Source: an uncultured bacterium
GTDB lineage: Bacteria > Cyanobacteriota > Vampirovibrionia > Gastranaerophilales > Gastranaerophilaceae
Direction: 5' to 3'
DNA: 33,026 nt
NCBI GenBank assembly: GCA_949293185.1
Contig: CASFCQ010000055.1
Location: forward strand, 1-33,026
Part shown: positions 1 to 2,587 of the stretch, in pieces
Layout of the letters: each line of letters opens with the position of its first letter
How positions within the stretch are numbered: position 1 is the first letter of the stretch
Notes under the pieces: generated by a model
Seen by the model: only the letters and a program-made list of their open reading frames with translations
The model's database searches: none
What the model was told of the DNA's origin: nothing
Program-made: the position numbers and the translations under genes

Positions 1-2556
1 TATGATAGCTACACGTTCAAGATACGGAATGTTCATAAATGTATCAGCGTGCTGGAATGCGTAGTTGAATGTTTGAAGCTGAGTTGTATAAGCACCTGCT
101 TGAGTAGCAACGGGTGAAGCTAAGACTGAGGGGTTGAATGCAGAACTTGCATTGCCGCCTGTACTTGAGGCACCTCTTAAAAAGAGGAATTCTCCTGTTT
201 CTTTATCATAGCTTATGTCATACTTATAGATTGGGCTGTAGGCTATTGGAGACGCACCTGTGTAGGACACCTGTGCTTTATAGTCATCTTTTGCAAACGG
301 GATATATGTTTCATCTTTTGTTGCATCGTTTAAAAGATTAAGATGATTAACACCTATTTGTGCGTCTTTTGATACAACGACATTTTCAGGCAATGTATCC
401 ATTTTTTCATTTTGAAGGTCAACATCTAATGCCATGTTGATGTTACCGTTTATGTTTGCACTTTGCATTATTTGTTGTTCTGCTATTCCGTTTACAAAGC
501 CTAAAGAACCTGAATTGATTGTAAAATCTGATTGTTCAAATACATTGTTTTTGCCTAAGTTGAGGTTTATTTTGTCTGATGTTACTTTTGCATTGATAAC
601 CGAGTTGTTTAGATATATTGTTCCTGTTTCATCACCTGTTAGAGAAAGGTTGTAAGCATTTGTGCGGTCAATTTCGTATTTGCCGGTTTGTGAATTCTTT
701 TTAGACACACCGCCGTCTATCTGGTCATCAAAGATAATGACACCGTTGTTTTGGGCTTGTAGTTTTATTGTAGGAGAAGAAGTTGAAGAAGTTTCAACAA
801 ATATAGCGTTATTTATTTTGCCTCTGTAGTCTTCTGTGTAGTTGCCCGAGAAATAATTAACTTGATTGTCCGCTATGAAGTTCATATCTGAATCTGTATA
901 CACAGCACCGCCTAACGCTAATTGTGAATCGGATTCTGTTTTTGCATAGTTATTGATAAATGAACCGTATATGCCGCCTACAAGGTTGCCGTCATCGTCA
1001 AGTTTGCCGATTGTTCTAGAGTTGTAAATCGCCCCGCCAGAGGCAATATTATTAGTTGAAACTGCATAGTTGCCGATAAAGTCACCTGTTATATTACCGA
1101 CTGTAGCTCTGTTGTTATGAATTGCCCCACCTAAGGCATTATTATCAGTTGAAGATGCATAGTTGCCGATAAAATCGCCTGTGATATCTTCAATTGTTGC
1201 ATAATAATAGTTATAAATCGCCCCGCCATAGGCATAATAATTAGTTGAAGACGCATAGTTGCCGATAAAATCGCCTGTGATATCGCCGATTGTTTCATTA
1301 AGGTTATAAATCGCCCCGCCATAGGCATTAGCATCAGTTGAAGATGCATAATTGCCGATAAAATCGCCTGTGATATCCTCGATTGTGCTACCAGCGTTAG
1401 AAATCGCCCCGCCAGAGGCAGAAGAATTAGTAGATGACGCATAGTTGCCGATAAAATCGCCTGTTATATTTCCGATTGTCGAATTAAAATAGTTATAAAT
1501 CGCTCCGCCATCGGCAGAATTCCCAGACGTATAGTTGCCGATAAAATCACCTGTTATATTACCAATTTCTCCTTCATCGTTACTAATTGCCGCACCATTA
1601 GGAGATCCTCCCAATATATAATTGCCGATAAAATCACCTGTTATATTTTTGATTATACCTGTATTATAAATAGTTCCGTTCATAACAAGATTTGATATTC
1701 TATCAAAATAAGTATAGTTGCCGATAAAATCGCCTGTTATATCGCCAATTGTTCCTGAGTTATAAATCGCCCCGCCATAGGCAGCAGAATCAGCAGATGA
1801 TGCATAGTTACCTATAAAATCGCCTGTTATATCTCCGATTGTTCCAGAGTTATAAATCGCCCCGCCATAGGCAGAAGAATCAGCAGATGATGCATAGTTA
1901 CCAATAAAATCGCCTGTTATGTCGCCGATTGTTCCATTATTGTTATTATAAATCGCCCCGCCATTGACCGAAGATGATGTTGTAACATTTAACCCTACAA
2001 AATCATTGTTTATATCTGCGCCCATTAAATCCATGTCTTCGGTAATTCTGTCAGGTTTAACTCTGCTTTGGTCTACATAATATTTAATTTCATATTCAAA
2101 AGCATTGCCGCTGCCGTCAGCATTGGGGGTAGTCACAGTAAAAGTTTTTGTTTCATCAGCTACATCCGGGTAGCCGTATTCTGTTTTATTAAGGTTCACC
2201 TGATAGTATTGAGGTACAAGTTTATTATCTGTTTCAGACCATTCGTATTTTGTTATTACATTTGTGCCGGGTTGATCAACCTGTTCGAGTGTGTATGATT
2301 GTTGATAGTCAGGGGGAGTTTCAGGGTCTGCTGCCATTGCCGGTGCTGCGATAAAGAAAGACAGTGCAAGGGTTAAGGCTGCTGTTTGCACGCTGCGAAG
2401 CAGTGTCATTCTGCAGCATTCATCGCTGCGGTTTTTGTTTAGATTAAAGTTAAAATCCTTTAAAAGTCTTGATATTATTGAATTGTAGGGCTTGGGAGTG
2501 GACAAAATACTATTATATAAGTTATCCTGAAGGTTTTTAAAATCTTTGTTATTCAT
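1..2556 (-). CDS. Pmp-like GGAI/FxxN repeat surface protein, probable autotransporter (partial, C-terminus off window)
   Basis: The frame is open from ATG 2556 to the window edge: 852 codons with no stop, so the C-terminus is missing. A basic, Asn-rich N-terminal extension of about 49 residues precedes a signal-peptide core (MTLLRSVQTAALTLALSFFI) with likely cleavage after APAMA at about residue 75. From about residue 198 to 512 there are ten GDFIGNY units alternating with GGAI(Y/S/H)N or GGAVY. GGA[ILV] plus FxxN (here FIGN) is the signature of chlamydial polymorphic membrane protein repeats, which fold as a beta-helix passenger. A further stretch of about 340 residues follows without the repeats. 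The AGGG upstream of 2556 supports the long start; the alternative is Met50 (2409). A surface or secreted adhesin role is inferred. A C-terminal beta-barrel, if present, lies outside the window. Confidence 0.8.
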   Translation of the reverse strand, partial: MNNKDFKNLQDNLYNSILSTPKPYNSIISRLLKDFNFNLNKNRSDECCRMTLLRSVQTAALTLALSFFIAAPAMAADPETPPDYQQSYTLEQVDQPGTNVITKYEWSETDNKLVPQYYQVNLNKTEYGYPDVADETKTFTVTTPNADGSGNAFEYEIKYYVDQSRVKPDRITEDMDLMGADINNDFVGLNVTTSSSVNGGAIYNNNNGTIGDITGDFIGNYASSADSSAYGGAIYNSGTIGDITGDFIGNYASSADSAAYGGAIYNSGTIGDITGDFIGNYTYFDRISNLVMNGTIYNTGIIKNITGDFIGNYILGGSPNGAAISNDEGEIGNITGDFIGNYTSGNSADGGAIYNYFNSTIGNITGDFIGNYASSTNSSASGGAISNAGSTIEDITGDFIGNYASSTDANAYGGAIYNLNETIGDITGDFIGNYASSTNYYAYGGAIYNYYYATIEDITGDFIGNYASSTDNNALGGAIHNNRATVGNITGDFIGNYAVSTNNIASGGAIYNSRTIGKLDDDGNLVGGIYGSFINNYAKTESDSQLALGGAVYTDSDMNFIADNQVNYFSGNYTEDYRGKINNAIFVETSSTSSPTIKLQAQNNGVIIFDDQIDGGVSKKNSQTGKYEIDRTNAYNLSLTGDETGTIYLNNSVINAKVTSDKINLNLGKNNVFEQSDFTINSGSLGFVNGIAEQQIMQSANINGNINMALDVDLQNEKMDTLPENVVVSKDAQIGVNHLNLLNDATKDETYIPFAKDDYKAQVSYTGASPIAYSPIYKYDISYDKETGEFLFLRGASSTGGNASSAFNPSVLASPVATQAGAYTTQLQTFNYAFQHADTFMNIPYLERVAII
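1021..1965 (-). repeat. tandem repeat of about 90 bp encoding GGAIYN...GDFIGNY units
   Basis: The + strand text GCCGATAAAATCGCCTGT, or a close variant, recurs near 1071, 1166, 1261, 1357, 1448, 1538, 1626, 1720, 1811 and 1901, a spacing of about 88-96 bp. All units stay in frame on the minus strand, and the spacers between GDFIGNY and GGAI vary in sequence. Two neighbouring units, about 1741-1830 and 1831-1920, differ at only a few bases, which suggests recent duplication. A degenerate extra unit (YGSFINNYA) lies further towards the C-terminus. Confidence 0.9.
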
Positions 2557-2587
2557 AACAATCCCTGCTTTCTGTTCTTAATATCGC

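Follow-up and report, generated by a model that had tools for sequence, protein, structure and literature searches.

The gene at the start of the studied DNA very probably encodes a type Va autotransporter from a family with at least 14 members in the same genome; several of its sister genes are candidates for switching by slippage, and the copy itself is fixed in frame. The DNA (the window, 33,026 nucleotides) is the whole contig G000:C55 from a 2.2-Mb genome assembled in 95 contigs. An earlier note on the sequence had considered that the organism might be a gut Melainabacterium, and the genome does belong to the Gastranaerophilales (Melainabacteria). The protein is a type Va autotransporter that is Pmp-like in its repeats, and it is not a chlamydial Pmp. 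The most informative part of the gene is a leader of 49 residues, which is absent from the earlier note.

Layout of the window gene and predicted fold of its product

The reading frame remains open, without a stop, from the leader ATG up to the contig edge; because this edge cuts the gene, its own C-terminus is not visible (Table 1). The divergent neighbour encodes a TPR protein and further on PTPS, BacA/UppP, RuvX, Lgt and a GH57 enzyme are found. These genes are ordinary and provide no operon context.

Table 1. Parts of the autotransporter gene in the window
Feature	Position	Strand	Remarks
Autotransporter gene	1..2556	-	852 codons from leader ATG; 3' end cut by contig edge
Shine-Dalgarno-like GCAGGGA, before leader ATG	2562..2568	-	common to paralogues C56 and C29
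Translated leader, residues 1-49, ahead of signal peptide	2410..2556	-	homologous to tract-bearing leaders of C56, C29 and C18
Decayed homopolymer position, TCCACTCCC	2492..2502	-	9-12 C in paralogues; frame open (read as locked on)
Signal peptide core MTLLRSVQTAALTLALSFFIAAPAMA, residues 50-75	2332..2409	-	ORF translation; aligned with paralogues
Conserved N-terminal cap domain, beta-rich, without Pfam family, residues 76-180	2017..2331	-	
FxxN/GGA[ILV] repeats, residues 181-571, as rungs of 29-32 residues in the beta-helix	844..2016	-	
Middle beta region joining helix to linker, residues 572-794	175..843	-	one of two sequence types among paralogues
Alpha-helical pore linker, residues 809-835	52..132	-	predicted structure; also in full-length relative
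Last residues before barrel	1..51	-	barrel itself beyond contig

Ten GDFIGNY units, alternating with GGAI/GGAV motifs behind a signal peptide, had been described before. The unit indeed occurs in exactly ten copies (residues 215 to 491), and the mature protein contains ten GGA[ILV] and 13 FxxN motifs, both more than in any of 10,000 shuffled sequences (mean 0.16, maximum 4, for GGA[ILV]; mean 3.4, maximum 11, for FxxN); the GDFIGNY units and the GGA[ILV] motifs lie far above the shuffled level. The repeats have a period of 29-32 residues with a spacing from FxxN to GGA of 14 residues in most units, and two units are degenerate (NGTI and GAAI). The signal peptide, identified by inspection from its hydrophobic core and AMA site and conserved in most paralogues, is likewise borne out, but its core begins only at residue 50, after the leader.

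The right-handed beta-helix that the earlier note proposed to look for is present in the AF2 model of the mature protein (pLDDT 91.7), in which a cap at the N-terminus is followed by regular beta-helix rungs, another beta region and, at the C-terminal end, a helix. The passenger matches the folds of Vag8 (Z 20.3) and pertactin (Z 16.6). A sequence search of the PDB found no relative. An NCBIfam match to gltX, and weak Pfam matches to Filamin, DUF6808 and Bflower_2, were judged to be due to chance.

An alpha-helical linker followed by a 12-strand barrel is present in the full-length relative L030 and, by alignment, in the paralogues, the window gene showing only the linker before the contig ends. 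In seven complete paralogues the last residues of the window protein are extended into the 12-stranded barrel. For L030 (67% identical), the same parts are predicted as for the window protein, beta-helix and pore linker included, with 12 barrel strands in addition, and its barrel and helix match those of NalP (1uyn) with a Z-score of 32.0 and an rmsd of 1.7 over 268 residues; EstA, EspP and AIDA-I also match. The Pfam barrel model PF03797 scores above its cut-off in paralogue C42 (48 bits), the barrel of which is 74% identical to that of C7, and likewise in 14 of 40 related genomes, one of these hits being possibly a contaminant. The barrel of the paralogues supports the type V autotransporter suggested earlier. 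With PF03797 the picture is mixed: among the paralogues C42 alone exceeds the cut-off, and most window-type barrels go unmatched, though they are about 74% or more identical to that of C42, and annotation by Pfam alone therefore undercounts the family. The match in locus L021 (G008:C157:730-1407), at 163 bits, lies far above the others in the related genomes and may stem from a contaminating contig. Two Omp85 proteins are encoded in the genome. Judging from its architecture and its known relatives, the window protein is likely an outer-surface adhesin.

A family of paralogues and their homopolymeric leaders

A DNA search of the same genome yielded many partial copies of the window gene. With a barrel alignment built from four paralogues, 17 barrel pieces were found. 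Seven are complete or nearly so, seven lack all but the C-terminal portion, and three are N-terminal portions, that of the window among them. Four further N-terminal halves (C29, C8, C18 and C36) end at contig edges inside the passenger or the leader. Since seven N-terminal halves match seven C-terminal halves, the genome has at least 14 family members. The barrels are 74-87% identical among four complete paralogues, and near-identical barrels are probably the cause of the assembly breaks. No exact contig-end overlap joining the window contig to a barrel was found in a comparison in which several minus-strand loci were used without reverse complementing. One copy (L018, G000:C36:458-680) contains a seemingly duplicated signal-peptide segment with an early stop and may represent a pseudogene or a misassembly at the contig edge. 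The 79 loci retained from genome_contigs carry the labels Gastranaerophilales, Melainabacteria, Cyanobacteria or unnamed bacterium; rumen or deer gut is the source of several.

The middle region of the window gene is of the type shared with C4 (74% identity), and its last residues match C56, C68 and C7. Identity to C56 is 92% at the barrel start and 80% in the N-terminal third. Such jumps in identity to single paralogues along the gene suggest a mosaic that may have arisen by recombination between family copies.

Alignment of the upstream regions revealed a shared leader, in which a Shine-Dalgarno sequence and an ATG precede the signal peptide core by some 150 nt; a homopolymeric run stands between ATG and core. 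Runs were found in the leaders of C56 (9 C), C36 (10 C), C18 (11 C), C8 (11 C), C29 (12 C) and C42 (G11). When the whole genome was scanned for C or G runs of at least 9, only seven places emerged, six being these family leaders and the seventh an AlgX-like gene; about 0.7 runs are expected by chance at the base composition of the genome, and the probability of finding six of seven in such leaders is about 5e-16. Read from the leader ATG, C18 and C8 are in frame and continue into the signal peptide and, where the sequence is available, the passenger; C56, C36, C29 and C42 are out of frame and stop after 24-29 codons. A frame that is set by a long 5' homopolymer, on in two and off in four of six paralogues, is a signature of slipped-strand phase variation. 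The familiar cases of random on/off switching by slippery runs come from bacteria adapted to a host, Neisseria and Chlamydia among them.

The pattern extends to eight related genomes, in which 20 of the 27 runs of at least 10 belong to the window-gene family (for one of the 20, located where a contig ends, the leader was the sole basis of the assignment). An ATG that is preceded by a Shine-Dalgarno sequence, lies 40-80 nt before the run and is open up to it was found for 29 of 32 leaders, versus 3 of 32 on the antisense strand and 62 of 1600 random positions (about 4%). The run puts the gene in frame in 11 of these leaders and out of frame in 21, which matches the one third expected if lengths drift freely; this ratio is approximate, as the longest downstream frame was taken as the coding frame and does not reach a visible signal peptide in some leaders of G002, G013 and G019, which are longer and interrupted or cut by contig ends.

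The proteins could be type Va autotransporters whose runs have no part in translational control, with the start at the ATG of the signal peptide and the runs being neutral or acting on transcription. We regard this as unlikely. It would agree with the ATG (encoding the M of RMT) located directly before the signal peptide core in the window's genome, between tract and signal peptide, and with the interruption between tract and gene in some G019 leaders. Against it stand the retention of a well-placed start before the run in nearly all leaders, the on:off ratio and 11 tabulated leaders whose coding frame is free of ATG codons from the run to the signal peptide; in these the start very likely precedes the run. 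Under the preferred reading, control of the frame by the run, the same ATG in the window's genome implies that the "off" state might be leaky. In the window (2399-2435, with a hairpin at 2411-2431), and in the leaders in L010, L011 and L013, a palindromic RSDE..RMT repeat has the signal-peptide ATG at its end. It resembles dispersed repeats of the HPEERSE type and is fused to several of the family's leaders.

Errors of sequencing or assembly (of the poly-G kind) are hardly credible as the origin of the tracts: the draft assemblies are fragmented and homopolymer length is open to miscalling, but the sequence flanking the runs is conserved, the coding strand has C in some of them and G in others, several species share them, and a single gene family holds most of them. 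The tract lengths themselves are those of MAG consensus assemblies, with one genome per species.

A long homopolymer that sets the frame is a feature of the family and not of the window gene, in which the run has decayed while the frame stayed open. This gene is best read as a copy that has been locked on.

We propose that the leader-extended signal peptide would carry the protein to the periplasm, where the Bam machinery would insert the C-terminal 12-strand barrel and the passenger would be threaded through it. Outside the cell the passenger would fold as a beta-helix, with the FxxN and GGA motifs forming the turns of the rungs. The loops between them would offer a variable surface whose most likely partners are host, mucus or neighbouring cells. 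Slippage in living cells at the poly-C or poly-G run between leader ATG and signal peptide would shift the frame of several sister genes; each tract-bearing gene would then be on at roughly every third length, and the proteins displayed by the population would keep changing. Having lost its run, the window copy would be fixed in frame.

Long runs were also observed in other genes. An AlgX/DHHW-like gene, assigned by Pfam on the L142 copy, contains a run of 10-11 C in its coding region in three species (L142, G000:C71:8773-8783; L180, G002:C48; L187, G019:C2) and is likely a second phase-variable surface gene. In L181 (G021:C2, 1844-1855) a run of 12 G interrupts a flagellin gene (Flagellin_N), which is out of frame in the assembly; a phase-variable flagellin is possible. 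In L186 (G006:C7), neighbouring genes contain C11 runs at 1400 and 1977, both of them G11 when read on the coding strand; one of these genes encodes a DNA methylase (N6_N4_Mtase), possibly a phase-variable methyltransferase.

Likeness to chlamydial Pmp and other known systems

The family shares with the chlamydial Pmp proteins its multigene nature and the paired FxxN and GGA[ILV] motifs in the rungs of the beta-helix, the order FxxN, loop, GGA being that of the Pmp rungs (PMC10715098). These motifs had been taken as a chlamydial hallmark, which does not stand: they occur in over 100 non-chlamydial species, and their role is structural, not directly adhesive (PMC10715098). The proposed profile check with PF02415 failed for the window protein, which scores 10.6 bits against a cut-off of 20.6; paralogues C42, C7, C6, C2 and C11 exceed the cut-off, and 5 of 30 relatives are matched at E-values up to 0.01. 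The Pmp middle domain (ChlamPMP_M) was detected neither in the window (E up to 1) nor in 30 members (E up to 0.01). The likeness to Pmp seen in the earlier note therefore comes down to rung architecture; the protein would act in the manner of a Pmp without being classed among them. Lateral transfer of a true chlamydial Pmp, to which the common repeats and these PF02415 matches might point, is very improbable in view of the low score of the window protein, the failure to detect a middle domain in 30 members, the spread of the motifs and the distribution of the family, which was matched in 36 of 117 sampled genomes of the phylum, all 36 in the window's own taxonomic family. The family also differs from Pmp in having its own cap and middle region, and barrels that are near-identical among paralogues. 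For pmpG, too, a poly-G tract has been described (PMC4488443), but here the tract is part of a translated leader that precedes the signal peptide.

Among the classical autotransporters the neisserial NalP is phase-variable. It shares with the window family the 12-strand barrel with pore helix and a homopolymeric run as the element that, in the window family, would exert control from the 5' coding region, but it has another passenger and belongs to a different phylum, and in the window family many paralogues would be switched independently. Pertactin, Vag8 and BrkA of Bordetella and AIDA-I and Ag43 of E. coli share the fold of the beta-helix passenger, the barrel or both, at a passenger sequence identity of only about 10%, and we know of no description of the FxxN/GGA rung pattern for them.

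Gastranaerophilales are gut bacteria that have been little studied at the bench. A literature search combining them with autotransporters or phase variation found no report, the adhesin papers being unrelated as far as their titles and the beginnings of their abstracts indicate; a flagellin paper (PMC7018530) reportedly contains both "Melainabacteria" and "phase variation". The present results would assign beta-helices of the Pmp type, together with phase variation, to a lineage for which the literature search found neither reported for these proteins. On balance we favour, with some reserve, the view that these commensal, non-photosynthetic relatives of the Cyanobacteria maintain a repertoire resembling that of antigenic variation. 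It would consist of at least a dozen beta-helix autotransporters that have their barrels in common, are mosaic in their passengers and are switched independently by slipped-strand events; pressure from host immunity, the mucosa or phage may have preserved it across species. If true, so large and partly slippage-switched a set would indicate selection by host, phage or neighbours, and the surface autotransporters offer a directly testable handle on the life of Gastranaerophilales in the gut.
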